Part shown: positions 2,913-16,819 of the stretch, piece after piece
Numbering within the stretch: position 1 is the stretch's first letter
Layout of the letters: each line of letters starts with the position of its first letter
Assembly (NCBI RefSeq): GCF_018603515.1
Contig: NZ_JACATN010000005.1
Coordinates: 62,001-126,000, forward strand
Reading direction: 5' to 3'
Origin: Zobellia barbeyronii
GTDB taxonomy: Bacteria > Bacteroidota > Bacteroidia > Flavobacteriales > Flavobacteriaceae
DNA length: 64,000 bases
The notes under the pieces: generated by a model
Databases searched by the model: none
Seen by the model: the letters and a program-made list of their open reading frames with translations, nothing else
What the model was told of the DNA's origin: nothing
Program-made: the position numbers and the translations under genes

Positions 2913-3079
2913 ACACCCAATTTTTCAAGCCGCAAAACTACGCCTTTATTTTGAACGAGTTAGGTTATATTTTACGTTTTTTGCCAAAGGGGATATTAAC
3001 CTGATAATAAGGGGCTTTAAACGGTATTTTAATTCTTAAAATGGATTGGAAAATAGAATAAATTTCGTGGAATGTTACT

Positions 3080-3586
3080 CTATTTATCATAACGTACACC
3101 TACGATCTTAAATAAACGGTCTTCTTTTCCTATTTGGAGTACTGCCACATCATTAACTTTTTTTGAAATTAAGGCCCTAGCGATAGGAGAAAGAAACGAA
3201 ATTTTATTCTCAGAAATATTTGCCTCATCCACACCAACAATCTGAAACTCTTGTGGCGATTTTGCATTACCTATCATCAATGAAACTTGAGCTCCAAAAC
3301 GGACCTCATTTTTGGGCTGGTCTTCAAGATGTATTACCTTGGCAGATGTTATCCGCTCATTTAATAATTGAAGTTTAGAATTTATTAGGTTGATAGCTAT
3401 GCGTTGTTCTTTTTCGTTGTCCTGATGAGATAATTTCTTATCCGCTATTAATTTTTCTCTTTCGTTGAGTAGTTTCAACAATCCGTTTTCTGTTACATAA
3501 TTAGTTGCTCCCATTGGCAAATCTGCCCTTGGAGGTACCATTGGTATTTCTTCCTGATCTTCTTCTTTTACAAATCCTCTGCTCAT
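3080..3586 (-). CDS. GreA/GreB-family transcription factor, atypical
   Basis: Protein of 168 residues with the GreA/GreB layout: an N-terminal coiled coil (about 35-85) and a C-terminal FKBP-like domain (about 95-168) containing the usual GAQV and SPIARAL segments. Classical Gre factors insert the coiled coil into the RNA polymerase secondary channel and rescue backtracked complexes with an acidic tip (D-x-x-EN). That tip motif is not visible here; the region is lysine/glutamine-rich (KKLSHQDNEKEQ). It may bind polymerase without classical cleavage activity. Monocistronic by spacing. Confidence 0.8.
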   Translation of the reverse strand: MSRGFVKEEDQEEIPMVPPRADLPMGATNYVTENGLLKLLNEREKLIADKKLSHQDNEKEQRIAINLINSKLQLLNERITSAKVIHLEDQPKNEVRFGAQVSLMIGNAKSPQEFQIVGVDEANISENKISFLSPIARALISKKVNDVAVLQIGKEDRLFKIVGVRYDK

Positions 3587-3726
3587 CTAAATAATTTTAA
3601 AAACAATTTAGTAGAAATCACTATTTATAATTGATGATATTCAACACATCTTTGTCGCAATAAAGGAAGATGGATTACAATTGTAATGTGATGGATTGAT
3701 GAATGGACGGAAAGTAAACCTGCAAT

Positions 3727-4461
3727 TTAAGAATTGAGGGAATTATCATTAATGTACTCCAAGAATTTAGGTTTATACTGCTCGGAAACCGTAATACGCT
3801 GCTTATTGATGATAATCTGACTTCGTTCAATAATCTCAATGTTTTTTAAGGACACAATAAAGGAACGGTGTACTCGCATAAATTCCGTCTGGGGAAGTTC
3901 TTCTTCCAAAGACTTTAAACTCATAAGCGTTAAAATTGCTTTTGGGTTATCCTTCAACCATATTTTTATGTAATCTTTTAATCCCTCAAAATATAGCACG
4001 TCAGACAGTTTAATGCGCACTTGTTTGTATTCCGATTTTACAAAAAGAAATTCCTTTTTATCAGAAACCGAGGTTTGGCTATGTCCTTTAACCAATGTAA
4101 ACCATTCCAAAGCTTTGTTTGCTGCAAACAAAAATTCTGCATAATCAAAAGGTTTAAGTAAATAGTCCAAAGCCTCTACTTTAAAACCTTCTAAGGCATA
4201 CTCATCAAAAGCCGTCGTAAAAACAACACGCGTATGCTTTGGTAGCATTTTAGAAAACTCAAGTCCCGAAAGGTCCGGCATCTGAATATCCAAAAACAGG
4301 ACATCTACCGTTTCCGTTTTTATAAACTGAAGTGCTTCAATAGCACTACTACATTTCTTTTTCAGCTTTAGAAAAGGCGTTTTCTCCACATAGCTTTCTA
4401 CCAAATTAAGCGCCATGGGTTCATCGTCTACAATCATGCAGGTAAGTTCTATAACTTCCAT
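3727..4461 (-). CDS. LytTR-family response regulator
   Basis: Two-component response regulator of 244 residues. The receiver domain (about 6-120) has the acidic pocket VDDE at 11-14, phospho-acceptor D58 in LFLDIQMPD and the conserved lysine in LLKPFD near 107. The C-terminal LytTR DNA-binding domain spans about 140-240, with FVKSEYKQVRI at its start and the RVHRSFIV segment typical of the family. Its natural partner is probably the LytS-type kinase at 9475-10512, now about 5 kb upstream. The gene sits 42 bases after the lipoprotein gene and may be read through from it. Confidence 0.92.
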   Translation of the reverse strand: MEVIELTCMIVDDEPMALNLVESYVEKTPFLKLKKKCSSAIEALQFIKTETVDVLFLDIQMPDLSGLEFSKMLPKHTRVVFTTAFDEYALEGFKVEALDYLLKPFDYAEFLFAANKALEWFTLVKGHSQTSVSDKKEFLFVKSEYKQVRIKLSDVLYFEGLKDYIKIWLKDNPKAILTLMSLKSLEEELPQTEFMRVHRSFIVSLKNIEIIERSQIIINKQRITVSEQYKPKFLEYINDNSLNS

Positions 4462-4503
4462 TTGAGTTTCATGTTTAGGTGATCAAAAGGTTTTTTCTAA
4501 AAT

Positions 4504-5520
4504 TTACTCTACGGTGTATCTAACAAGTACTTCATTATCTAAAACTACATTGGTAGACCATATAAACTGAGCATCTGCTGCACTGTTATCAAAAACATCT
4601 ATAAAGTTAGTGTATGCTGGTTTATTATCCACACCTATGGTGTTATTTGTAAACTCGGTTGCTTTTGGCCATTCACTATCATCAAAATCTGCAGATTGCC
4701 AATTTGTTGGTTTTTTCCAATGCAAAGCGTAATATGATGTTCCGTCATTAGAATCCTCAGTACTGCACGTTTCACTTAACCTTAAAGTTCCTTCTTCTGA
4801 AGCACAAGATAAATCTCTTAAAGGTGCTGTGTAATATGTTTGGGCTTTCCAATTAGCATCTGTTGTCGCAATTATTTCTCCTTTAGCATCTTTAAAAACA
4901 GCTACCATACCTCCATCTCCAGGGTGAAATGCTTGCCCTCTATTAGCCTCAGAGCCTAATCCACTATTTTCTTCCCAGTCCACCAATTTCATAGCTATTG
5001 TAAAAGGTATTTTCACCTTAAAACGAACGATATTAGAGTTAAATTGAGTAAATGGTACATTGTCTTTGCCTACTGCAACACCATTAATGTACATTTCAAA
5101 ATAGTTATCGGCAAATACATATGCAGTAACAACCTCACCATCGGAATCAACCTCAATAATATCTGTTCCGTCTAAAGCTGCTAAAGCTTCATCAGCTGAT
5201 GCATATTCTACTTTTGTACAAGGATTAAACAAATCTGATGCAAAAGGAAAACTATCATCAGTAAAATTTACTTCTGCGGGGACGGTCCATTCACTACCAT
5301 CTGTTGCTGTAGATATTCCAATTGGTGCTTCTCTACCCCTATCACACTCAAAAATGTTTTCAGTAAGAACGGTTGCTGGCCCTTGAGTTACAGATGCTGT
5401 TCCTTTATAAATTTCTAAATTTTCGGGTGTCGTTTTTTTACTGTTTTGACCGTTTTTACAAGCTGTCATCGTTAAAGAAGCGAAAACAAAGAGTAGTAAA
5501 GTGTTCTTTAAGTATATCAT
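4504..5520 (-). CDS. Secreted lipoprotein with galactose-binding-like fold
   Basis: Protein of 338 residues with a lipoprotein signal (lipobox ending TAC, C20), so probably anchored in the outer membrane or periplasm. The C-terminal half resembles jelly-roll sugar-binding domains of glycosidases: a WKAQ segment, then W-x-x-x-DFDDSEWPKA and a final IWS strand. No catalytic motif is visible. It is the last of three genes for exported proteins (YHYH, PEBP-like, this one), 13 bases after the PEBP gene. Role unknown; it could bind carbohydrate or scaffold the other two. Confidence 0.6.
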   Translation of the reverse strand: MIYLKNTLLLFVFASLTMTACKNGQNSKKTTPENLEIYKGTASVTQGPATVLTENIFECDRGREAPIGISTATDGSEWTVPAEVNFTDDSFPFASDLFNPCTKVEYASADEALAALDGTDIIEVDSDGEVVTAYVFADNYFEMYINGVAVGKDNVPFTQFNSNIVRFKVKIPFTIAMKLVDWEENSGLGSEANRGQAFHPGDGGMVAVFKDAKGEIIATTDANWKAQTYYTAPLRDLSCASEEGTLRLSETCSTEDSNDGTSYYALHWKKPTNWQSADFDDSEWPKATEFTNNTIGVDNKPAYTNFIDVFDNSAADAQFIWSTNVVLDNEVLVRYTVE

Positions 5521-5533
5521 TTTATTGTTATTT

Positions 5534-6133
5534 TTAATTTGAGTCTATAAAGGTTAAAGTTGTTCTGTCTATAATTTCTACCGTTCCCAATGCATCCATA
5601 AACACATTATAATCTACATTTAAACTATGCTTTTGGGGTAAAGTAGTAGGTGTTTCTGATAAGGCGTAAAGTGCTATAGTGTATTCATGTTTCCCTTTCC
5701 CCCTAGAACAAGGAGATGTATACGATATGGCTGTACCATCTTTATTGGCTCCCATAAACCAATTTCCTTTAGAAGCCATTTTATATGATATTCCCGTGGT
5801 CTCAGGATCAATATCCCATAATAACAAATATGAATTGATTTCTGTCTTATCATCTTTCTTAGGATAATGATACATAACAATAGCTAGAGATTTAGTACCA
5901 TAAGGTACATTTTCCCATGAAAGAGGAATGGAGTTTTCAACATCATTGACCTTCTCTTCGCACTTATAAGCATCCAATAAAACACCATTGTCTATAGCAA
6001 TACTGGTTAGTTTGAAATCTGAATGTATGGTTTTGAAATTATCATGATTCACTTCTGTAGTTGCTTTTTTATTGTTTTTACAAGACATCAAACCAATAAA
6101 AAGTATGGGAACTATAAATTTTGAATATTTCAT
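5534..6133 (-). CDS. PEBP-like (YbhB/YbcL) lipoprotein
   Basis: Protein of 199 residues with lipoprotein signal (C18 after GLMS). It matches the phosphatidylethanolamine-binding protein / Raf-kinase-inhibitor-like family: PLSW-x-NVP-x-GTKSLAIVM near 50-70, and TSPCSRGKGKHEYT near 140, which corresponds to the family's C-terminal ligand-pocket motif. The DPDAP motif of the family centre is not conserved. Its start overlaps the stop of the YHYH gene by 4 bases (ATGA), so the two are translationally coupled. Ligand unknown. Confidence 0.75.
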   Translation of the reverse strand: MKYSKFIVPILFIGLMSCKNNKKATTEVNHDNFKTIHSDFKLTSIAIDNGVLLDAYKCEEKVNDVENSIPLSWENVPYGTKSLAIVMYHYPKKDDKTEINSYLLLWDIDPETTGISYKMASKGNWFMGANKDGTAISYTSPCSRGKGKHEYTIALYALSETPTTLPQKHSLNVDYNVFMDALGTVEIIDRTTLTFIDSN

Positions 6134-7452
6134 TTTTCTCTTGGTTTATAGGTTTCAACAGTTGATGTACCATCAGGATTTATAAATTGATAGCTATAAT
6201 TATCTTCGCTGTCCCACTTGTAATTTATAATATATTCTTCTGAATCTAAACTGTACGTTAACGCATATGAATTTTCTCCTAAAGTTTTAAATTCAACAAT
6301 CTCAGCACCTCGCAGTGGTCTTAATGCAGGTCGTAATTCTTGTGTTCTAGGTTGCGGAGACACTTGATTTTCTGGTGCTTCTGTTTTTGGGTCCAATATG
6401 ACTTCTCCTCTCATACCTGCTATTAAATAAGGATATTCTTTTATAGCATGGTATTCATAAGAACCATCTGCGTTTGTTTTTCCTAAATACTCATCTAATG
6501 TATCTGTGGTTTCTCCATAAACCGGAAATCCATCTACGGCATAAGCAACGGGATTTCCCGCACCAACTTGATCCTGCAAATGTAGAGGTGGTAAATGATA
6601 GTGATAATCATCTGCACGACCACAATGTCCGCCCCAATTGTCTAATTCACCAATAGCATTAGCATCTTCACCTCTATTGTTTAAAGGATTAAAAATGGGA
6701 ATTCCATTTACAGCAACAGCAATTGCCCCTTTTAGCAAATTAGTCTTTGTAGATAGCGGATTTTCTGCCATTTTTGGATGCGTAGGAATGGCCCAACTAT
6801 TGTCACCTGTATAATTTTGCTTAATAGGTACTTGTTGTTGCCAGTTTTTAATACCAACCATCATGTCATGATCTGGTAACCCATTTGATGAAATATATAG
6901 ATAGTTCTCATCTGAATGTGTTGTGACACCGTCAAATTTTTCAAAAAAGGTTTGCATCAGCGAAACATTACTTGATGGTGCTTGCGTAGTACTTGTTTTA
7001 GCGCTATTGGTATTCTTGCACGATACAATTAAAATAACCCCTAAACCAAGTACTCCGTGAGTTAAGTACACTGCTTTCTTTTGTTTTATCAGTTTAAAAA
7101 TAGAAAAGGACAAAAGAATAATACCTAAACCAATAAGAGCCCAATTAAAACTTGATACTGATTGGGGGGCAACTTTAATTGGTTCGCTACCATTTAAAGA
7201 ATGGATGAATTCACTTTTAGTTTTAATATACTTTTGGTCAGCTTCTACAAAGTCTGTAATTTGAAAAGTTTGAATAGTATGATTGCTATCCATAAGCCAA
7301 ACTTCACCGTTTTCATATTTAATAAAATCAGCCTGGATTATTTCGTTTGTAGTTAATTCCCATTGTTTGGATGGAGTTCCATGTCCGCCTTCATGTGCGG
7401 AGATAGCACCAAAAGATAAGACAACGAGGATAATTAAAATTGAATATTTCAT
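6130..7452 (-). CDS. Membrane-anchored YHYH-domain protein
   Basis: Protein of 440 residues in three parts. Residues 1-100: Sec signal, then a small beta-rich segment (W31 to about 82) resembling SHD1/Lsm-like secreted modules. Residues about 103-145: two hydrophobic helices; the second ends VSC (C145), reminiscent of a buried lipobox. Residues about 165-400: YHYH domain with GHCGRADDYHYHLPPLHL at 275-292. The domain is rich in H, D and E and looks metal-binding, but its activity is unknown. The arrangement looks like a fusion of a small exported protein with a YHYH lipoprotein. It is coupled to the PEBP gene. Confidence 0.75.
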   Translation of the reverse strand: MKYSILIILVVLSFGAISAHEGGHGTPSKQWELTTNEIIQADFIKYENGEVWLMDSNHTIQTFQITDFVEADQKYIKTKSEFIHSLNGSEPIKVAPQSVSSFNWALIGLGIILLSFSIFKLIKQKKAVYLTHGVLGLGVILIVSCKNTNSAKTSTTQAPSSNVSLMQTFFEKFDGVTTHSDENYLYISSNGLPDHDMMVGIKNWQQQVPIKQNYTGDNSWAIPTHPKMAENPLSTKTNLLKGAIAVAVNGIPIFNPLNNRGEDANAIGELDNWGGHCGRADDYHYHLPPLHLQDQVGAGNPVAYAVDGFPVYGETTDTLDEYLGKTNADGSYEYHAIKEYPYLIAGMRGEVILDPKTEAPENQVSPQPRTQELRPALRPLRGAEIVEFKTLGENSYALTYSLDSEEYIINYKWDSEDNYSYQFINPDGTSTVETYKPREK

Positions 7453-7504
7453 AGTCTTTCGTACTAAAATTTATATTTGTTTTTTTTTGAAAAAAATCAG
7501 AAAT

Positions 7505-9304
7505 TTATTCTTTTAAAGTGTTTTTAATTTTATCAATATTTAAGCTATTTGCCATTGCATTAAAAATTTTATAATAGGCACTCTCATTGTTATACAATGC
7601 CTCATGAGTACCTTGTTCTATTACTTTTCCTTTTTCTAAAACAATGACATTTTCAGCGTCAATTATTTGAGAAATACTGTGGGAAATAACGATTACTGTT
7701 CGCCCTTTTTTTATGGCGTCTAAACTTTTCTTGATTTCTTCAGTTGCTATGGCATCCAAACTCGCCGTGGGTTCATCAAGAAAAATAATAGGAGGATTTT
7801 TCAAAAATAATCGTGCTATAGAAACCCGCTGTTGTTGCCCACCAGATAGTAATGTTGCTTTTGAATTATAGCCCTCTGGCAATTGAATTATTTGCTCATG
7901 GATATAGGCTTGTTTTGCTGCCGCTACAACTTCTTCATCTGTAGCATTTTCTTTTCCGTAAAGGATGTTTTCTTTAATACTACCATTAAATATATGGTTC
8001 TTTTGTAATACCAACCCGATGTTATCTCTTAACCAATGTGTATCATACTCTTGCAAATCAACACCATCTAAAAGTATTTCGCCCGAGGTTGGTGCATAGA
8101 ATTTATCTAACAAATTAATCACTGTGCTTTTTCCTGCACCGCTTAAACCAACTAGAGCATTTATTGCATTGGGTTTAATAACCATGGAAACATCATAAAG
8201 GGCTTTAGTTCCATTAGGATATGCAAAATCTACATTTATAATTTCAAAAGTACCGGTGAATTTTTCAGGAATATAAGTGCCACTTAATTCCGTTTCTTCA
8301 TCGGCATCCATAATTTCAAAAAATGCATCCGAATATATTATAGCATCCTGTACTTCATCATATATGCGATGTAATTGTTGTATAGGTGCCGATACATTGT
8401 TAAATAGTAAAATATGAAACATTATAGCACCAATAGTCATGCTACCATTTAAAACAAAATAAGCGGTTAATATGATAATGATAACGGCTCCAAATTGTTC
8501 TGTGAATTTTTTTAGTGCGTCAAATAAGAAACTTAATTTTCTTGTTTGTAATAGATTTTCAGTCATGTCTAACTGAATGGCTTCGTGCTTTTTACTTTCA
8601 AAATTTTCTCTTGTAAAAGATTTTATAACAGTAATAGAATTTATTAACCCGATAATGCCATTATTTTTTGTTTCTCTATATTTCCTCATGGTACGTCTAA
8701 AACCTTTCAGTTTTTTAGCTTGTAGACTGCTTATGTAGAAGAAAAGTGGAATAATTGAAAGACTCACTAACCCTACATATACGTTGGCGTTAAACATGAT
8801 AATTAAAGCGACAAAAGCATTAAAGAATAAAGGTAATATGTCAATAAAAAAGTTTTTTATCAACTGCGTAAGGCTTGTAACGCCTAAATCTATTCTAGTT
8901 TGTAATTTGCCACTTTCATTAGTTGGAGAACTGTAAAAAGCCATTTTGTAAGTCAATATGCGTTCTACAATGTTTTGCGCAAAGTCTTTTGAAATATAAA
9001 TTTTCATTTTTTCTCCATAGAACTTTTGACCAAATTGTACTAGTGCATAAAAACCTTCTTTTAAAAGCAGAATAATGCTAATTATGGCTAATAGCGAAAA
9101 CCCTTCTTTTACGGTTTTATTAGCGTCACTTAAGGTTGTTAATTCATCAACGGTGTAGCGTAACACTAATGCGTTAACCTGCGCCAATAATGCGCCAATT
9201 ATGGTTAGGATTAAAGACGCAATCACCAATTTTTTATAGGGTTTTACGTAATCCCAAAGTTTTTTAAAAAGCGCTACAAGCGTTTGCTTAGAGGCATCTT
9301 TCAT
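7505..9304 (-). CDS. ABC exporter (fused permease and ATPase)
   Basis: Half-transporter of 599 residues of the MsbA/MdlB type: six-helix membrane domain in about residues 1-310 and an ATPase in about 340-580. The ATPase has Walker A GLSGAGKST, signature LSGGQQQR and Walker B IIFLDEPTASLD with the switch histidine in ISHS. It would act as a homodimer in the inner membrane. It begins the block that lies between the kinase and regulator genes and ends 52 bases before the YHYH gene, so co-transcription is likely. Substrate unknown (lipid, peptide or drug). Confidence 0.88.
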   Translation of the reverse strand: MKDASKQTLVALFKKLWDYVKPYKKLVIASLILTIIGALLAQVNALVLRYTVDELTTLSDANKTVKEGFSLLAIISIILLLKEGFYALVQFGQKFYGEKMKIYISKDFAQNIVERILTYKMAFYSSPTNESGKLQTRIDLGVTSLTQLIKNFFIDILPLFFNAFVALIIMFNANVYVGLVSLSIIPLFFYISSLQAKKLKGFRRTMRKYRETKNNGIIGLINSITVIKSFTRENFESKKHEAIQLDMTENLLQTRKLSFLFDALKKFTEQFGAVIIIILTAYFVLNGSMTIGAIMFHILLFNNVSAPIQQLHRIYDEVQDAIIYSDAFFEIMDADEETELSGTYIPEKFTGTFEIINVDFAYPNGTKALYDVSMVIKPNAINALVGLSGAGKSTVINLLDKFYAPTSGEILLDGVDLQEYDTHWLRDNIGLVLQKNHIFNGSIKENILYGKENATDEEVVAAAKQAYIHEQIIQLPEGYNSKATLLSGGQQQRVSIARLFLKNPPIIFLDEPTASLDAIATEEIKKSLDAIKKGRTVIVISHSISQIIDAENVIVLEKGKVIEQGTHEALYNNESAYYKIFNAMANSLNIDKIKNTLKE

Positions 9305-9474
9305 ATATTAAAGTTTGAACGAATTGTGTTTATGAAATAAGATAACTTGAGTAACGATATTGCACTTATTTAATAACACTAAGAAATATTATTCCACAAC
9401 ATAGTTATAATTGAATTAGAGTATTTGGTTTATCACTTTCAATACTATTCAAAAAAATATGAGCCCTATGATGC

Positions 9475-10512
9475 TTAGTTAGTTTCTATTTTTAAATTAA
9501 CTCTATAGACACCAGCTTTGAGTTCCTTTTCAAAAGTGTGTTTATTTGGATATAATAACTGCAGGCGCTTTTCTAGATTAGCCAAACCAATTCCAGAACC
9601 ACTTTTATCATTATCCTGTTTAGGAAAATTATGATTTTCAATTGTGAAATCCACTATGTTCCCCTTAATGGTCATATCAATAGAAATGATGCTATTTTTG
9701 TTGGCAGAAACCCCATGTTTAAAAGCATTTTCAATCAGTGATATAAATAATAGAGGTGCAATTTGAATTCCATTTTGACTAACAGGAAAACTAGACTCAA
9801 TTTCTGTTTTATCCGTCAAGCGCAGCTTCATTAAATCTATATACTTCCGCATGAATTCTATTTCCTTAGAAAGTGGTACAAACTCCGTATTAGTTTCATA
9901 CAATAGGTACCTCATAAGTTTCCCTAAACTATGAATTGTAGATTTTGCCTTTTCTGGGGAAATATCCACAAGAGAATAGATATTATTCAACGAATTAAAA
10001 AAGAAATGCGGCTGCAGCTGGTAACGTAAATGCTGCAATTCCGTTTGTAATTTAAAATTATCGGCTTCCTTTTTCTCTGCTTCAGTTTTAACCCATCTTT
10101 TAGTGGTCTTAATGGCTATTGAGAAAAGTAAAGGAGCAGCATAGGATAACATTTGTACATATAAGAACAATTTAAATCGAGGTCCTTCCCTATTATCCTC
10201 CGGCGGACGTTTCTTTATGAGTTCTGCAAAATAATTATCCTCAATAAATTCTTTCATCAAAATGAAAAAACCGATAATCACTAAATTGATAAGAATAAAT
10301 ACCACCGTTTTATTCGAGAAAAGGAATTTATCAATTAGTATGAGAAAATTCAGATAAAATATGATTGCATAGAATAGCATTGGTATCAAGAAATGCGCAA
10401 TTAACCTATTGCTATCCAAATCTTGACCGTACGTTAAAACAAACGGAATGCTGAACAGCACCAACCAAATAAGAAGGTGCTGTATAATTATTATTTTTTT
10501 ATTCTTGTACAT
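9475..10512 (-). CDS. LytS/YehU-type sensor histidine kinase
   Basis: Kinase of 345 residues. Four membrane helices lie in about 8-135, then a HisKA_7TM-less His_kinase domain with phospho-acceptor H169 in LQPHFFFNSLNNIYSL, an N-box in LIENAFKHG and a G-box in GSGIGLANLEKRL. It starts 6 bases after the MacB-like permease gene and closes the tolC-macA-macB-permease operon. Such kinases normally sit directly next to a LytTR regulator; here the only one is at 3727-4461, beyond the ABC/YHYH/PEBP block. It probably senses envelope stress or the exported compound. Confidence 0.92.
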   Translation of the reverse strand: MYKNKKIIIIQHLLIWLVLFSIPFVLTYGQDLDSNRLIAHFLIPMLFYAIIFYLNFLILIDKFLFSNKTVVFILINLVIIGFFILMKEFIEDNYFAELIKKRPPEDNREGPRFKLFLYVQMLSYAAPLLFSIAIKTTKRWVKTEAEKKEADNFKLQTELQHLRYQLQPHFFFNSLNNIYSLVDISPEKAKSTIHSLGKLMRYLLYETNTEFVPLSKEIEFMRKYIDLMKLRLTDKTEIESSFPVSQNGIQIAPLLFISLIENAFKHGVSANKNSIISIDMTIKGNIVDFTIENHNFPKQDNDKSGSGIGLANLEKRLQLLYPNKHTFEKELKAGVYRVNLKIETN

Positions 10513-10518
10513 AATTAC

Positions 10519-11739
10519 TTATTCATAACGTAAAGCTGTGATAGGATCTAGAGATGACGCTTTTCTTGCAGGATACCAGCCAAAGAAAATACCTGTTACC
10601 GCACAGACCGCAAATGATATTAATATTGAATACAACGTTACACTCGTAGGCCAATGTAAGAACTTTTCAATAAAAACGGTAGCACTTAGTCCTATGAATA
10701 CCCCAAGGAGTCCACCGGTAATACTAATTAATATTGCTTCAATAAGAAATTGCATTAAAATATCTGAGCCTTTGCCGCCTACTGCCATACGAAGTCCTAT
10801 TTCTTTTGTTCGTTCTTTTACCGATACGTACATGATATTCATAATACCTATACCGCCTATCAATAATGAAATACTTGAAACTGCAACTAAAAGAATAGTA
10901 AGCATATCGCTGGTAGAACTAAAGGTAGAAATTAACTCTTCCATAGACCGAACTGTAAAATCATCATCTTCGGTATCCATTAATTTATGTTCTGCGCGTA
11001 GAATATCCGTCACTTCTATAACAGCATCGGCTGCATCATCTTCACTAATAGCAGAAGCCATGATTTGATTTAAATAATCAATAGCCAAAATCCGTTTTTG
11101 TACCGTGGTATAAGGAGCAATAACCACATCGTCTTGATCTTGCCCAAATGTGTTTTCTCCTTTTTCTTCTAAAACTCCTATTACTTTAAACGGAATATTA
11201 TCAAAGCGAATCATTTGACCTACAGGGTCTTGACCATCAGGAAATACATTCTCTACAACAGTTTGTCCAAGAACAACAACTTTAGAAGCGGATTTTACTT
11301 CGGCATCGGTAAACATACTCCCGCTTTGAAGCCCCACAACTTTAATCTCCAAATATTCTGGGTTAACACCATAAATGGTACTTGGCCAGTTATTGGCACC
11401 GTTTATTACTTGTCCGCCGCCATTTACAATAGGTGTTATATAACTTAGAAGTGTAGATTGATTTTTTATCGTTTCATAGTTAGCAAGCGTTAGAGTTTGC
11501 ACATCACCCCCACTACCCCTTGCAGGACCTCTATCATCTGCCCCAGGACGTATAGTAATCATATTAGAGCCCATACTTGAAATGGTACTTCTAATACTCT
11601 CTTTGGAACCTTCACCTATAGCCAACATGGCAATTACCGAAGCTACGCCAATGATAATCCCTAACATGGTCAACAAAGTTCTTGTTTTGTTAAGAATTAT
11701 AGCTTTGAAAGCGATTTTAAATAGATTTAATAGTCTCAT
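10519..11739 (-). CDS. MacB-type ABC transporter permease
   Basis: Permease of 406 residues with the MacB/FtsX layout: one N-terminal helix (about 10-40), a large periplasmic domain (about 45-275), then three C-terminal helices (about 280-395) in the FtsX domain. MLGIIIGVASVIAM and the GGIGIMNIMYVSVKERTKEIG segment are family hallmarks. It works with the ATPase encoded next to it (11742-12485) and the MacA and TolC homologues as a mechanotransmission efflux pump for antibiotics, lipids or peptides. The substrate is not deducible. Confidence 0.92.
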   Translation of the reverse strand: MRLLNLFKIAFKAIILNKTRTLLTMLGIIIGVASVIAMLAIGEGSKESIRSTISSMGSNMITIRPGADDRGPARGSGGDVQTLTLANYETIKNQSTLLSYITPIVNGGGQVINGANNWPSTIYGVNPEYLEIKVVGLQSGSMFTDAEVKSASKVVVLGQTVVENVFPDGQDPVGQMIRFDNIPFKVIGVLEEKGENTFGQDQDDVVIAPYTTVQKRILAIDYLNQIMASAISEDDAADAVIEVTDILRAEHKLMDTEDDDFTVRSMEELISTFSSTSDMLTILLVAVSSISLLIGGIGIMNIMYVSVKERTKEIGLRMAVGGKGSDILMQFLIEAILISITGGLLGVFIGLSATVFIEKFLHWPTSVTLYSILISFAVCAVTGIFFGWYPARKASSLDPITALRYE

Positions 11740-11741
11740 AA

Positions 11742-12485
11742 TTAATCGTCTTGTTTAGGTAATTTTGCTAATTCTTCTGCTGCAGATTGAATATTTTCAT
11801 TCTTATAATCTTGAATGATATTTCCATCTTTAAGCACAATTGTTCTATTGCTGAACGTAGCAATATCTGGTTCGTGCGTCACAAAAGTGATGGTAATACC
11901 CTGTTTGTTCAATTCCTGAAATAGAGACATAATTTCATAAGACGTACGAGTATCCAAGTTTCCCGTTGCCTCATCCGCAAGTATCATAACCGGATTGTTC
12001 ACCAAAGACCTTGCAATGGCCACACGTTGTTGCTGACCACCGGAAAGCTGAGATGGCGTATGATGTAATCTATCTCCCAACCCTACCATTTCTAAGGCTT
12101 TAATAGCACGTTCTCTTCGCTCCTCTGTAGATACCTTGCTGTTATATAACAATGGTAGCTCTACATTTTCTATTGCGGATGTTCTAGCTAGCAAATTATA
12201 TGATTGAAAAATAAATCCTATTTTCTCATTTCTGATGGTAGCCAATTCATTTCTACTTAAATCTTTCATGCTTACACCATCAATCTCATAAGTACCAGAT
12301 GTAGGTTGATCTAGGCAGCCCAATATATTAAGCATGGTACTTTTACCAGAACCACTAGATCCCATAATAGTTACAAACTCCCCTTCTTTTATAGAAAACG
12401 AAATACCTCTTAGCGCGTGAACCGTTTCGGTTCCCATGGTAAACTCACGTTTTAAATCTTCTATTTTTATGATTTCTTTACTCAT
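11742..12485 (-). CDS. MacB/LolD-type ABC transporter ATPase
   Basis: Stand-alone ATPase of 247 residues. It has Walker A GSSGSGKST at about 42-50, the Q-loop in FIFQSYNLL, signature LSGGQQQR, Walker B VMILADEATGNLD and the switch histidine in VTHE. In enterobacterial MacB this domain is fused to the permease; here, as in many Bacteroidota, it is a separate gene two bases from the permease. It powers the MacA-TolC efflux complex. Confidence 0.93.
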   Translation of the reverse strand: MSKEIIKIEDLKREFTMGTETVHALRGISFSIKEGEFVTIMGSSGSGKSTMLNILGCLDQPTSGTYEIDGVSMKDLSRNELATIRNEKIGFIFQSYNLLARTSAIENVELPLLYNSKVSTEERRERAIKALEMVGLGDRLHHTPSQLSGGQQQRVAIARSLVNNPVMILADEATGNLDTRTSYEIMSLFQELNKQGITITFVTHEPDIATFSNRTIVLKDGNIIQDYKNENIQSAAEELAKLPKQDD

Positions 12486-12487
12486 GG

Positions 12488-13711
12488 TTATTTCTTTTTA
12501 CCTCCTGGGCGTTGTGGCATAAATGGACTCTCTTCTGTGCCGCCTGCTGCAACACTAGACTGGGTAGTTTCAGATTTTAAACTATATACCAATTTGTCAC
12601 CTTCATTAATACCACTTAAAATTTGAACGTTTACTCCATCACTTGCACCTAGTTTCACTTCTTTTGGAGTAATAGCTCCATTAGATTCTAAAACCCAAAC
12701 TTTAGTAACTTCTTCTTTATCAGCTGTTCTTGGTCCATTATTGGGACGCTCTAGCGTTAACTTCTCCTGCTCGTTATATGCCATCATTTCTGGTTGTGTA
12801 GGCTTAAAATTGATAGCTTTTGCTTCTACTGATAACACATCTTTTAGTTCGAGGGTGTAAATCGAAATCGTTGCCGTAAGACCTGGCTTCAGTTGCAAGT
12901 CAGGGTTATCTGCCTTAATTACAACTGTATAGGTTACTACATTTGAAGTTACCGTTGGGTCTAATCTTACCTGTGTAACAATTCCTTCAAACACTTTGCC
13001 TTGATACGCATCTACCGTAAAACTTACGCGTTGCCCTTCTTTTACAACCCCTATATCCGCCTCATCTACATCTGCTTCAACCTGCATTTCTTTTAAATCC
13101 TGAGCAATCGTAAACAGAGTCGGTGTGCTATAACTAGCCGCAACCGTCTGTCCTTCATCAATATCCCTAGAAAGCACAACACCGTCTATTGGTGAATAAA
13201 TATTGGCATACCCCAAATTGGTTTTGGCTTCTTGTAAATCTGAGAAACGCTGTGTTACCGTACCTTTTGCTGTTTGATAGTTAAATGATGCATCGTCAAA
13301 ATCTGACTTACTAATTACCTGGTTATCAAATAGCGTTTTCTGCCTGTCGTATATAATTTTCATATAATCCCTTTGACTAACCGCATTGTCATATGCCGCT
13401 TGGGCCTGAGTTTTGGATGCCTTAAGATTGGTCTTGTCCAACTCCGCTATCAATTGCCCTTCGGTAACCGTACTATTATAGTCCACATAAATTTTTTCCA
13501 CAACCCCGGAAACCTGCGTACCTACCTCTACTTGGGTAATAGGTTCAATAGTACCCGTAGCCGTAACCATGGTGGTTACATCTCCTTTCTTTGCAGCAAT
13601 AGTTTTAGCTTCAATTATAACTTCGTCACCTCCGTTTATAAAACTGTATGCTACAATGGCGAGTATAACTATGGCTATACCACCGATTATTATGTTTCTT
13701 TTATTTTTCAT
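12488..13711 (-). CDS. MacA-type periplasmic adaptor (HlyD family)
   Basis: Membrane-fusion protein of 407 residues: one N-terminal helix (about 7-26), a biotinyl-lipoyl-like domain split around an alpha-hairpin (about 55-200), a beta-barrel domain (about 210-290) and a C-terminal membrane-proximal domain. TQVSGVVEKIYVDYNS and YANIYSPIDGVVL are the two lipoyl half-motifs. It bridges the MacB-type transporter and the TolC-type channel. It sits 2 bases before the ATPase and 5 bases after the TolC gene. The C-terminus is proline/glycine/lysine-rich. Confidence 0.93.
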   Translation of the reverse strand: MKNKRNIIIGGIAIVILAIVAYSFINGGDEVIIEAKTIAAKKGDVTTMVTATGTIEPITQVEVGTQVSGVVEKIYVDYNSTVTEGQLIAELDKTNLKASKTQAQAAYDNAVSQRDYMKIIYDRQKTLFDNQVISKSDFDDASFNYQTAKGTVTQRFSDLQEAKTNLGYANIYSPIDGVVLSRDIDEGQTVAASYSTPTLFTIAQDLKEMQVEADVDEADIGVVKEGQRVSFTVDAYQGKVFEGIVTQVRLDPTVTSNVVTYTVVIKADNPDLQLKPGLTATISIYTLELKDVLSVEAKAINFKPTQPEMMAYNEQEKLTLERPNNGPRTADKEEVTKVWVLESNGAITPKEVKLGASDGVNVQILSGINEGDKLVYSLKSETTQSSVAAGGTEESPFMPQRPGGKKK

Positions 13712-13716
13712 TTTGA

Positions 13717-15048
13717 CTAAAGTTTAATTTCGTTTCCTTGATAGAATTGTAATAGTTGATGATATAAAATGTTTAAGTATTTAGCTTGTAAATAGTTCTG
13801 TTGGGCATTGGTATACGTGTTCTGGCTAATCACCAAATCCGTTGTGCTTAAAGCACCCAATTCGTATTTTTTCTGTGCTAGATTATAAGATTGCTCTGCA
13901 GCATCTTGCGATGCTTGGGCTGCCAAAATTTGCTCTTGAGATGATAGTGCGTTTTGATAGGCGGTTTCTACCTTTTTAATCACTTCCTTTTCTACACTTT
14001 GCTTTTGTATGTTCGCTTTTTCAATATTTATAGTTGCCGTCTGTACCGCTGCTTTTGTTTGGTTTCTATTGAAAATAGGAATGCTTAAGCTTAGGCCTAG
14101 TTTTTGATTAAAGTTGACATCCAACTGGTCTCCAAAGGTGTTATCGTTTATACTGGTGTAACCTGAACCAAGACTACCAATTAATGATAATGTAGGTAGG
14201 TAGCCCCCTTTTGCAATATTCAGATCCTTTTCATTAACAGCTATGTTGGTATTGCTTGCCTCTACCTCTGGCAGATATTCCAAGGCATTGGTATAAATGG
14301 CCTCCTTGTTTAGTTCCAGATTTACCAAATCCATATTATCATCAATAGTCTCTATTTCTAAATTTTCTAAAGGCGATAATTCCAATAGTTGTTTTAAGGT
14401 GATGATGTTTAGAGCGTACTCATTTTTAGCAGTAATTACATTGAATTTGTTAGTAGCTGCTTGACTCTGTGCCTCCGTATAATCACTCAGGGCAATTGAG
14501 CCAGCATCTAATCTAGATTTTGCACGTAAAACTTCTTGTTCCGATGCAGTCAGATTATTTTCTGCAATAGCAATCCCTTCTTTACTATAAAGGGTCTGTA
14601 AATAAGTTTCTAAAATGCTGATGACAATGCTGTTCTTAGCTTCTTCTTCTAATAAAGTGCTTTGTTCCAGAAGTAATTTATTCTGCTTAATTTGATTACT
14701 CAACTGATTCCCTTTAAATAGCGTCATGGAGCTATTGATACCCAAATTGGTATTATGAATCTGATCGGATACATAATCGCCTGTAATAGGGTCAATGGTA
14801 TTACCGCTGGAAAAACCTTGAGAAGCACTACCAAACAAATCTGGTAATCGAGCAGATTTAGCTTTGCTATAATCCACTTCAGAACTATTCTTGTTTAAAG
14901 TGGCATCCTTTACAGTAATATTATTTTCTATAGCGTAGGTAATACAGTCTTCCAAAGACCATACTTTTGATGCCGAGTTAGCATCGGACTCTTGCCCGAA
15001 AGAAATCTGAGCAATTAAAAAGCTTGCTAGGATTATATATAATTTCAT
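13717..15048 (-). CDS. TolC-family outer membrane efflux protein
   Basis: Outer-membrane channel of 443 residues with signal peptide (cleavage near SFGQ, residue 18). Two long coiled-coil repeats, rich in A, Q, N and S, are typical of the TolC fold; each repeat carries helical stretches such as QSQAATNKFN and QASQDAAEQSYNLAQKKYELG. First gene of the five-gene tolC-macA-macB-permease-kinase operon running to 9475. No terminator separates it from macA. Confidence 0.92.
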   Translation of the reverse strand: MKLYIILASFLIAQISFGQESDANSASKVWSLEDCITYAIENNITVKDATLNKNSSEVDYSKAKSARLPDLFGSASQGFSSGNTIDPITGDYVSDQIHNTNLGINSSMTLFKGNQLSNQIKQNKLLLEQSTLLEEEAKNSIVISILETYLQTLYSKEGIAIAENNLTASEQEVLRAKSRLDAGSIALSDYTEAQSQAATNKFNVITAKNEYALNIITLKQLLELSPLENLEIETIDDNMDLVNLELNKEAIYTNALEYLPEVEASNTNIAVNEKDLNIAKGGYLPTLSLIGSLGSGYTSINDNTFGDQLDVNFNQKLGLSLSIPIFNRNQTKAAVQTATINIEKANIQKQSVEKEVIKKVETAYQNALSSQEQILAAQASQDAAEQSYNLAQKKYELGALSTTDLVISQNTYTNAQQNYLQAKYLNILYHQLLQFYQGNEIKL

Positions 15049-15242
15049 TTGATAGGTGTTTTTATTTTACACTTCAAAAGTGAAACATTACTACCACCTA
15101 TTAAAGAGCAATAGAAGTCTACCCCGATTGACTATACAAACACCCCTATTCTATCGACGGGATTTTTACGATTAGTAACGTTTTTGGTTTAACAGATAAT
15201 TGTTCATTACCATTGCTTCTTAGATTCTAAAATTTAAAACAT

Positions 15243-15277
15243 AAAAAATCCGGTTACCAATGGCAACCGGATTTTTT
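15243..15277 (-). terminator. Rho-independent terminator of the CotH gene
   Basis: Perfect 13-base inverted repeat (aaaaaatccggtt / aaccggatttttt) with a 9-base loop and T-runs on both sides. It lies 43 bases after the CotH stop and before the tolC gene, separating the two minus-strand transcription units. Confidence 0.85.
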
Positions 15278-15319
15278 CTCCAATTTAACTCCTACATCAT
15301 CACGCTACATAAAAACTCA

Positions 15320-16819
15320 CTAATTCAAATAATTACTAACTGCCGCTGCTCTTTCAGATACATGACTGTTCAACTCGCTTATAGCTGCCTGGAAGTCTGC
15401 GCTAGAATTCAAGAATGTATAACCCTCAACTTCTGCTGTTGCATAAGGCTCTACCAATGAAGAATAAGCAGCATATTCAGCTTGCATTCCGCTCACTGTA
15501 AAAACGTTATTCGCAAATTCCTGCACATAGCTATCATATTTTGCTTTGTAGGTTGCATCTTCATACAAGTATCCTATGAGAGGCCACTCTGTATCATTTA
15601 AGTCTGAGAAATCTAAAGCTAGAGACCCTTCTTGATTACCACGTTGTAAGGCTTCGTTATTATCCCAAGGTATCCATGACAATGTTTCTGTATCTGGATT
15701 GTTGTAAAGAAAATAGTTGTGTGTCATTCTACCATACGTATCCCAGTTTTGGATAACCGTGTTCACTGCTAAATAGTTCAAGAATGTTTCCGTATCAAAT
15801 ACAGTTTCTAAATTGGCACGCCAAGCTTCAGGATCAGTTGTACGATTATCTGCATGTAAAGCAGCAAAAAGACTTTCTATATCAGAATAATCAGCTTCGT
15901 CCTCATTAGTTTTCTTAACGAATACATCTTCAGAAAAAGAACCATCTGCGAAGCTAGCACCATCACCATCAGGCTTATACAAATTACCATCATTATCAGA
16001 GAATTGGGTGTCAATTACCGTATCATCTACTTCTTCAATCAAAGTATATACACCAAAATACTCAGGCCCATCACCATGGTCTACATAAACCTCATAAATT
16101 GAAGCATGAGAACTAGCCAAACCTGCTTCTCTGAACAAATCTGTAGCCACTTTTTCACGTAGCATAGACTTGTCATTATAGTTGTTTTTAAGACTTAGTT
16201 TTTTGAAACCATAAAAACGCTGATTGTCAATTTGTGGATATTCATCTTCAAATTCATCAAAATCTAGTTTAAAGGATAATTTCAAGATACCAGCAGACCA
16301 ACTAGACTGTAAGCTAGAATTCCCTTTGAAACGTAAACCTACACGATACCATTCTTTGTCTTCAAAGAAAACTTCACCTGGAACAAAAATTGGATCTTCA
16401 TCAATTTCTACAAGTCCACCGCCACCTTGGCCACCAGCTGGAGGACCACCTGCTCCAGGTCCTGCACCTGCTCCAGTACCGCCAAATTCACCGTATAATG
16501 ATGTCATATCATCTAACATACTCTGCCATCTGTCTTCTGTAATTACAAGATCAAGACGTTTTACCGTATTGTCCTCAAAAACTACATCAAAATTAGGATC
16601 AGCAGATTTGGTATGGGTTAAGTCTGTCCAATCTGTTGCGTCAAAATCGCTATCAGCATATGTCTCTACATAGTCCGCATCATCGTCATCGGTTTCTTCA
16701 ACTACCTCTTCCGTGGTTTCTACATCGTCCACAACAGCATCAGCTACATCATCATCTGAGCAAGAAGTTAAAAATGTGAAGTGCATTGCCAATAAGAGCA
16801 ATAGGCTTACTTTTTTCAT
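15320..16819 (-). CDS. CotH-kinase-family lipoprotein
   Basis: Protein of 499 residues with lipobox TSC (C20), followed by a very acidic linker (residues 21-60, mostly D, E, V). From about 75 to 440 it matches the CotH family, atypical protein kinases first known from Bacillus spore coat. Recognisable parts are RVGLRFKGNSS, KLSFKLDFDEF, LSLKNNYNDKSMLREKVATD and SWIPWDNNEAL. A glycine/proline-rich insert lies at 113-135. Surface location is inferred from the lipoprotein signal and acidic linker. Substrate unknown; a terminator follows. Confidence 0.82.
   Translation of the reverse strand: MKKVSLLLLLAMHFTFLTSCSDDDVADAVVDDVETTEEVVEETDDDDADYVETYADSDFDATDWTDLTHTKSADPNFDVVFEDNTVKRLDLVITEDRWQSMLDDMTSLYGEFGGTGAGAGPGAGGPPAGGQGGGGLVEIDEDPIFVPGEVFFEDKEWYRVGLRFKGNSSLQSSWSAGILKLSFKLDFDEFEDEYPQIDNQRFYGFKKLSLKNNYNDKSMLREKVATDLFREAGLASSHASIYEVYVDHGDGPEYFGVYTLIEEVDDTVIDTQFSDNDGNLYKPDGDGASFADGSFSEDVFVKKTNEDEADYSDIESLFAALHADNRTTDPEAWRANLETVFDTETFLNYLAVNTVIQNWDTYGRMTHNYFLYNNPDTETLSWIPWDNNEALQRGNQEGSLALDFSDLNDTEWPLIGYLYEDATYKAKYDSYVQEFANNVFTVSGMQAEYAAYSSLVEPYATAEVEGYTFLNSSADFQAAISELNSHVSERAAAVSNYLN

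Follow-up and report, generated by a model that had tools for sequence, protein, structure and literature searches.

Prokaryotic PEBPs are relatives of FT and RKIP. PMC8793217 argues that PEBPs are enzymes, describes the prokaryotic ones as seldom placed in conserved operons and infrequently fused, and names five near-invariant charged residues (two Asp, two His and one Arg), replacements of which are exceedingly rare, with multiple replacements in two groups only. The YHYH family (PF14240), which includes phage-tail YHYH domains, is predicted in PMC7824862 to bind Zn and to act as a hydrolase and, according to PMC11992049, counts among the Pfams of diatoms. No paper joining YHYH with PEBP was found in the YHYH passages of the title-relevant papers of a mostly open-access literature. 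Here we describe a locus of Zobellia barbeyronii in which a YHYH gene, a divergent PEBP gene and a third gene stand in one row. It lies in a stretch of 64,000 nucleotides (contig NZ_JACATN010000005.1, positions 62,001 to 126,000), which will be referred to as the window and in which the three genes are placed as follows.

6130-7452, minus strand: YHYH gene, open reading frame of 440 amino acids
5534-6133, minus strand: PEBP gene, open reading frame of 199 amino acids, lipobox Cys18 by eye
4504-5520, minus strand: third gene, open reading frame of 338 amino acids, lipobox Cys21 by eye, resembling CBM67 and the lectin POL

The genes are transcribed in the order YHYH, PEBP, third gene. Bases 6130-6133 are common to the first two reading frames and 13 bases (5521-5533) separate the second from the third, so that the 4-base overlap and the short gap reported by a first-pass annotation are borne out by the reading frame calls. 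Its two family calls hold as well, with 53.1 bits for PF14240 (cut-off 25) and 50.7 bits for PF01161 (cut-off 24). In comparison with three relatives the ratio of nonsynonymous to synonymous substitution (dN/dS) was 0.09-0.17, and all three genes are therefore under purifying selection.

Linkage of YHYH, PEBP and the third protein across genomes

Genome contigs were scanned with three YHYH proteins, which yielded at least 528 relatives, and the best 80 loci were kept for the counts. Partners were called with profiles built for PEBP and the third protein. A PEBP, a third protein or both were found adjoining or fused to YHYH in 68 of the 80 loci (both in 20), whereas none of 579 genes located more than 2.5 kb away matched either profile. 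The third protein accompanied YHYH in 39 loci (fused in 2, adjacent in 37). For PEBP, the first-pass annotation had regarded rare co-occurrence with YHYH as refuting its proposal of one extracytoplasmic unit; PEBP was fused to YHYH in 11 loci and adjacent in 38, that is, in 49 of the 80, and the proposal of one unit is supported. An un-iterated PEBP profile recovered the same 50 PEBP genes. Clustering at 70% identity gave 46 groups, of which 37 carried a partner (PEBP in 26, the third protein in 18).

The arrangement of the genes is variable. With YHYH first, the orders were YHYH-PEBP-third (13 loci), YHYH-third (9), YHYH-PEBP (7) and YHYH alone (12); the remaining unfused orders were PEBP-YHYH (11), third-YHYH (8), third-PEBP-YHYH (5) and others (2). 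Fused genes combined YHYH with PEBP (11) or the third protein with YHYH (2). Fusions occur in distant groups, and in the fused genes of L102, L106, L123 and L125 PEBP and YHYH each score above their Pfam cut-offs. Bacteroidota, a Planctomycetota metagenome bin (L106) and an alphaproteobacterial plasmid (L143) all contain the PEBP clade tied to YHYH; some groups (e.g., L042, L059, L106) derive from metagenome bins alone, in which mis-binning is possible. A Loktanella plasmid carries YHYH, PEBP and the third gene followed by another YHYH-annotated gene, and a plasmid of Rhodobacteraceae SC52 carries the third gene followed by YHYH. In L154 the third gene is flanked on both sides by other YHYH genes, and in L157 a fragment of it lies beside a short YHYH gene.

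Close relatives of the YHYH protein (E < 1e-40) were present in 16 of 397 genomes of the family sample, for which the top 4 or 5 candidates per genome were scored, so that absences are uncertain. A PEBP adjoined or was fused in 11 of the 16 (one of them broken, one with a truncated YHYH), the third protein alone in 3 and neither in 2. The third protein was found in 13 of the 397 genomes, 9 of them among the 16. This patchy distribution, together with the signs of transfer described below, could be taken to mean that the three genes adjoin by chance, or travel together on one mobile stretch, and have no joint function. The permuted orders, the two kinds of fusion, the difference between linked and distant genes, the purifying selection on each gene and a PEBP branch tied to YHYH all argue against this explanation. 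It is already contradicted by the existence of single-gene fusions, and we consider it very improbable.

Several observations nevertheless weigh against a strict unit. Neither partner was found in 12 of the 80 loci. Nine of 395 genomes of the phylum sample matched YHYH, our own included, and in the other eight the third protein was adjacent in three and PEBP was within 1.5 kb in none. The third protein of two Flavobacteriaceae (L155 and L156) had no YHYH within 1.5 kb, and two conjugative Vibrio plasmids (L206 and L207) carry it at full length and alone, near transfer or insertion-sequence genes. Taken together, the conclusion that YHYH, the divergent PEBP and the CBM67-like protein are evolutionarily tied as one unit is well supported.

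Properties of the three proteins

To compare the PEBPs, signature columns were set by aligning linked PEBPs to unlinked relatives, with residue roles following PMC8793217 and the residues at the positions that we take to be those of the signature. The first and second Asp were kept in none of 52 linked and in all 30 unlinked PEBPs. The first His was Tyr in all 52 linked and His in all 30 unlinked proteins, and the second His persisted in 20 of the 52, including the PEBP of the window, compared to 30 of 30. The Arg was kept in 1 of 52 linked PEBPs and is also rare in the unlinked ones (9 of 30), and is thus without discriminating value. The linked PEBPs therefore lack the five-residue signature, their changes being Asp to His, Asp to Pro and His to Tyr. 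A phylogenetic tree of 30 linked PEBPs (window, 28 of the 50 and Loktanella) and 30 unlinked ones separated the two sets by one branch with support of 99/98. In the class sample, 44 of 247 genomes gave a PF01161 match; in the flanks of the 30 best-scoring unlinked PEBP loci, which were fetched, neither YHYH nor the third protein was detected, and 19 further matches of this sample, that of our own genome among them, lie outside these loci.

Thus, the window PEBP belongs to the PEBP/RKIP/YbhB family by its profile score and differs from it in being a predicted lipoprotein with both signature Asp residues and the first His replaced, and in its tie to YHYH. Judged from the alignment, the linked PEBPs look like a third group with multiple signature replacements. 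As all 52 deviate at three of the five signature positions, binding of small anionic ligands, which the first-pass annotation had carried over from ordinary PEBPs, is not simply transferable to them. Searches by sequence for solved structures gave just two weak relatives. The PEBP gene of Kriegella (L023:8654-9251, also L039) is broken by a frame change with its neighbours intact; a sequencing error is possible.

The YHYH protein is composed of several parts, read from its sequence and a predicted model with a mean pLDDT (predicted local distance difference test) of 89.6.

6130-7452, minus strand: YHYH protein with SHD1-like domain, two predicted transmembrane helices, internal lipobox, YHYH core and C-terminal beta domain
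7393-7395, minus strand: His20, predicted mature N-terminus (A19 at -1, signal peptidase I), cleavage site by eye
7207-7377, minus strand: SHD1-like domain, residues 26-82, structural match to 2hbp
7018-7152, minus strand: two hydrophobic helices, residues 101-124 and 127-145, from the predicted model, ending in lipobox-like Cys145
6445-6798, minus strand: YHYH core, residues 219-336, PF14240 match
6139-6327, minus strand: C-terminal beta meander, residues 376-438, Z 5-7

Within the core, all 69 aligned relatives share E269, D271, H276, D281, D282, H284, H286 and D307 without exception, as they do the D-x-Y-H-Y-H motif with its conserved Asp/His set, which bears out the dense H/D/E motif noted earlier. 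Since the relatives were found via patterns over residues ~197-212, invariance in that part is to some extent built in. The conserved His/Asp set is common to the window protein and the PF14240 family, phage-tail domains included. What the window protein adds is the SHD1-like domain, the internal lipobox and the ties to PEBP and a lectin-like protein. A phage or viral origin was considered and rejected: no relatives of the YHYH protein were found in viral contigs or phage sets, none of the third protein in viral contigs, and a viral fold library gave no match at E up to 0.001. No solved structure related to the YHYH protein by sequence was found.

Residues 26-82 superpose on the SHD1 domain of yeast Sla1 (2hbp) with Z 8.0 over 57 residues and a root-mean-square deviation (rmsd) of 2.0; Foldseek gave this match a probability of 1.00 but an E value of 1e-2. 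The SHD1 Pfam profile did not match the protein, YHYH being the sole family at E up to 1. In comparison with Sla1, the domain shares the fold but is bacterial, periplasmic by prediction and located right after the signal peptide. A His at position 20 is present in 65 of 66 covering rows, and in all 65 it directly follows A, G or S; the predicted mature protein begins with HxxxH. Of the 65 rows that cover the lipobox-like Cys145 (7018-7020), 63 have the Cys, 61 of them with A, S or G at -1, and this residue may represent a site at which a pre-protein is cut into two envelope proteins. Read by eye, C-K-N stands at the Cys in all three window proteins. In a relative from a Chloroflexi bin (L101) the YHYH domain comes after an ordinary lipobox at the N-terminus. 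This suggests an origin of the long form in the fusion of an SHD1-transmembrane gene to a YHYH lipoprotein gene. The C-terminal meander resembles half of an FABP barrel, a common arrangement.

The host genome (4.98 Mb) contains six YHYH genes (seven matches, two within one gene) and one PEBP, and the other five YHYH genes therefore have none adjoining. Some of these five adjoin a DUF6702-like gene (match below cut-off) or a MORN and SCO1 gene. L012:5057-7099, where a MORN-repeat protein and SCO1 accompany a short YHYH gene, represents a recurrent, different YHYH context, and in L171:2854-7532 MbnP, a second YHYH with a type IX sorting tail, Lcl_C and the YHYH subfamily occur in one row.

For the third protein (model with mean pLDDT 84.1), residues 108-308 matched the CBM67-bearing rhamnosidase 3w5n with Z 10.1 over 127 residues and rmsd 3.2. 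Structures of the Pleurotus ostreatus lectin POL matched with Z 9.3-9.8 (6t0q 9.7), the matches to CBM67 and POL spanning 117-127 residues. The GH78 enzyme 2okx followed with Z 8.6 and the next, unrelated rows with 5.8. The protein is thus predicted to have a jelly-roll fold of the CBM67/POL type, in agreement with its earlier description as jelly-roll-like. It shares this predicted fold, at Z 9.3-10.1, with CBM67 of GH78 alpha-L-rhamnosidases and with POL, and differs from them in being a lipoprotein that stands alone, has an additional N-terminal region, lacks a catalytic domain and gives a sequence match below cut-off. One pair of residues is a candidate for the binding site.

5104-5109, minus strand: Asp138-Asn139, candidate calcium- or sugar-binding pair

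All 31 rows have D138 and N139, and this candidate pair lies in the fold-matched region. The calcium pair of SaRha78A is reportedly Asp-Asn. CBM67 is described as calcium-dependent (PMC4690510), and two consecutive aspartates are reported to bind calcium in a POL-like lectin (PMC11512411). No solved structure related by sequence to the third protein was found, all rows of one search having E 0.095 or worse. Two genes publicly named 'PEBP family protein' (L143:10622-11269 and L144:8214-8855) are hit by the profile of the third protein (E 3e-53 and 2e-58) but not by that of PEBP, the L143 gene being without a Pfam match; from these profile scores the public name looks mistaken.

Probable insertion into an efflux operon

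In the window the three genes are embedded in a row of genes on the same strand, with the following flanking features.

10519-15048, minus strand: MacB-like permease, ABC ATPase, HlyD-type adaptor and OEP channel (host operon)
9475-10512, minus strand: sensor histidine kinase, one flank of the insertion
7505-9304, minus strand: MsbA-like ABC exporter, upstream of the three genes, outside the conserved unit
3727-4461, minus strand: LytTR response regulator, other flank of the insertion

On the minus strand the order is a MacAB-type efflux operon (OEP, HlyD-type, ABC ATPase, MacB), kinase, exporter, YHYH, PEBP, third gene and LytTR regulator. Three genomes of the same genus (L158, L159 and L160) have kinase and regulator directly adjoining without the three genes, and no close match to YHYH or the third protein was found among their scored candidates. 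The Kriegella locus (G129/L039) has the three genes, PEBP being broken, flanked by kinase and regulator, and lacks the exporter. Synonymous divergence (dS) of the three genes was 0.46-0.79 in comparison with L031, L032 and L034, whereas that of the regulator was saturated in two comparisons and 2.1 in the third, with a proportion of synonymous differences (pS) of 0.71-0.86. The kinase, with dS of 0.79, 1.13 and saturated, gives a less clear sign of transfer than the regulator. The empty sites and the contrast in dS argue that the three genes most likely moved in between kinase and regulator by transfer.

The exporter lies 52 bases from the YHYH gene, directly upstream as the first-pass annotation had stated. 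It was rejected as a member of the unit, as an upstream homologue was found in 2 of the 80 loci (L031 and L056) and is absent in Kriegella. With dS of 0.20 versus L031, the exporter is an addition separate from the three genes. No Rfam match was found in 3000-16000, promoter and terminator scans gave no more matches than in shuffled sequence, and no stable hairpin was found at the YHYH/PEBP junction.

The position between kinase and regulator might indicate that the window proteins serve these two as accessory sensors, binding an envelope ligand and tuning MacAB-type efflux. Of the 12 loci L031-L041 and L056, 11 (all but L040) have the three genes flanked by homologues of kinase and regulator. 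A kinase-regulator pair also lies nearby in L047 and L060, and L050 and L067 have one elsewhere in the stretch that was fetched. The rest of the 80 loci, however, gave no homologue of this kinase and show other orders and fusions, and the same-genus genomes mentioned above keep the pair without the three genes. We therefore regard a sensory role as quite improbable.

Neighbouring genes and proposed function

Neighbouring families were compared between a near set (106 of 184 collected operon-like neighbours, loci up to L088 only) and a far set (106 of 320 genes), eighteen loci, all kinase-regulator ones among them, being left out of both. As the far set begins 3.5 kb from YHYH, it is not a clean control. 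Metallophosphoesterases made up 9 of 106 near and at most 1 of 106 far genes, and ECF sigma factors 6 of the near genes and no more than 1 of the far ones. Counting same-strand genes up to 4 kb away at 92 loci, we found Lcl_C in 15, metallophosphoesterase in 13, ECF sigma factor in 8, Spy-like in 7, SCO1 in 6, multicopper oxidase in 4, sulfatase and HupE in 3 each and MbnP in 1. L104 has a sulfatase next to it and L073 an alpha-L-fucosidase in its vicinity. The Lcl_C Pfam matches were confirmed for five examples, and Pfam matches of the copper-related families for some examples; Lcl binds sulphated glycosaminoglycans according to PMC11162425.

Part of these neighbours could point to copper. 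Histidine-brace copper proteins carry a mature N-terminal His. The three proteins might thus handle a redox metal, most likely copper, with YHYH delivering or oxidising the metal and the lectin and PEBP docking. The conserved His20 behind its predicted cleavage site is consistent with this, as are the multicopper oxidase, SCO1, HupE and MbnP genes, the Spy-like genes together with an ECF sigma factor in 7 loci and a copper-chaperone-type HMA gene near two host YHYH paralogs (L010). However, SCO1, where found, is grouped with a short YHYH gene of its own (L067, L072, L077, L082 and L110) and may belong to that gene. Multicopper oxidase occurs in just the 4 loci, the counts of these families are raw ones and the likeness to histidine-brace proteins is an analogy. 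We retain copper handling as an unlikely explanation on account of the N-terminal His and of SCO1, multicopper oxidase and MbnP as neighbours.

Our preferred reading, held tentatively and at somewhat less than an even chance, is that the three genes form one horizontally moving envelope module in which a lectin, a putative metal-enzyme and a re-purposed PEBP act on a sugar-bearing substrate. A metal-enzyme is favoured because of the eight invariant acidic and His residues and the Zn-hydrolase prediction in PMC7824862, and a glycan or phosphate substrate because of the metallophosphoesterase, sulfatase, fucosidase and Lcl_C neighbours. All three proteins would be exported, PEBP and the third protein as lipoproteins according to their predicted signals, and the YHYH pre-protein may be processed via the internal lipobox into an SHD1-transmembrane membrane piece and a YHYH lipoprotein. 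The third protein, to go by its predicted structure, would bind sugar through a calcium site. The YHYH domain would act as a metal-dependent enzyme, probably a hydrolase, on the sugar-bearing molecule captured by the lectin, and PEBP with its changed pocket residues might present or modify a small polar group or product. The window copy, most likely inserted in the MacAB-type efflux operon between kinase and regulator, may be co-regulated with this operon.

Against this proposal stand several results. The YHYH core, searched within the full-length model, had no known-fold match among the Foldseek and VIA rows listed, and its enzymatic chemistry is putative; the conservation of acidic and His residues could be structural. 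For the third protein, the sole Pfam hint was a Bac_rhamnosid_N match of 19 bits, below the cut-off of 25, and Foldseek gave nothing at E up to 0.001. No neighbour family is universal across the loci. Lcl_C was rejected as a core partner, being found in 2 of 106 genes in the near and far sets alike though near 15 of the 92 loci, and is regarded as accessory. A more specific version of the module, an undescribed envelope enzyme system in which a double-processed YHYH metal-enzyme (cut first by signal peptidase I to expose the N-terminal His, then matured as a lipoprotein at the internal lipobox) and a calcium lectin act together with a PEBP clade whose rebuilt pocket is a new active or ligand site, is doubtful.

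The recurrence of the three genes, reshuffled or fused, in many bacteria gives two enigmatic families a shared, testable context, and the question of what a PEBP does becomes a test on three defined proteins. The PEBP clade tied to YHYH contrasts with the picture of few operons and fusions drawn in PMC8793217. If the enzyme system just described is true, the fusions would reveal the purpose of prokaryotic PEBPs in one setting at least.

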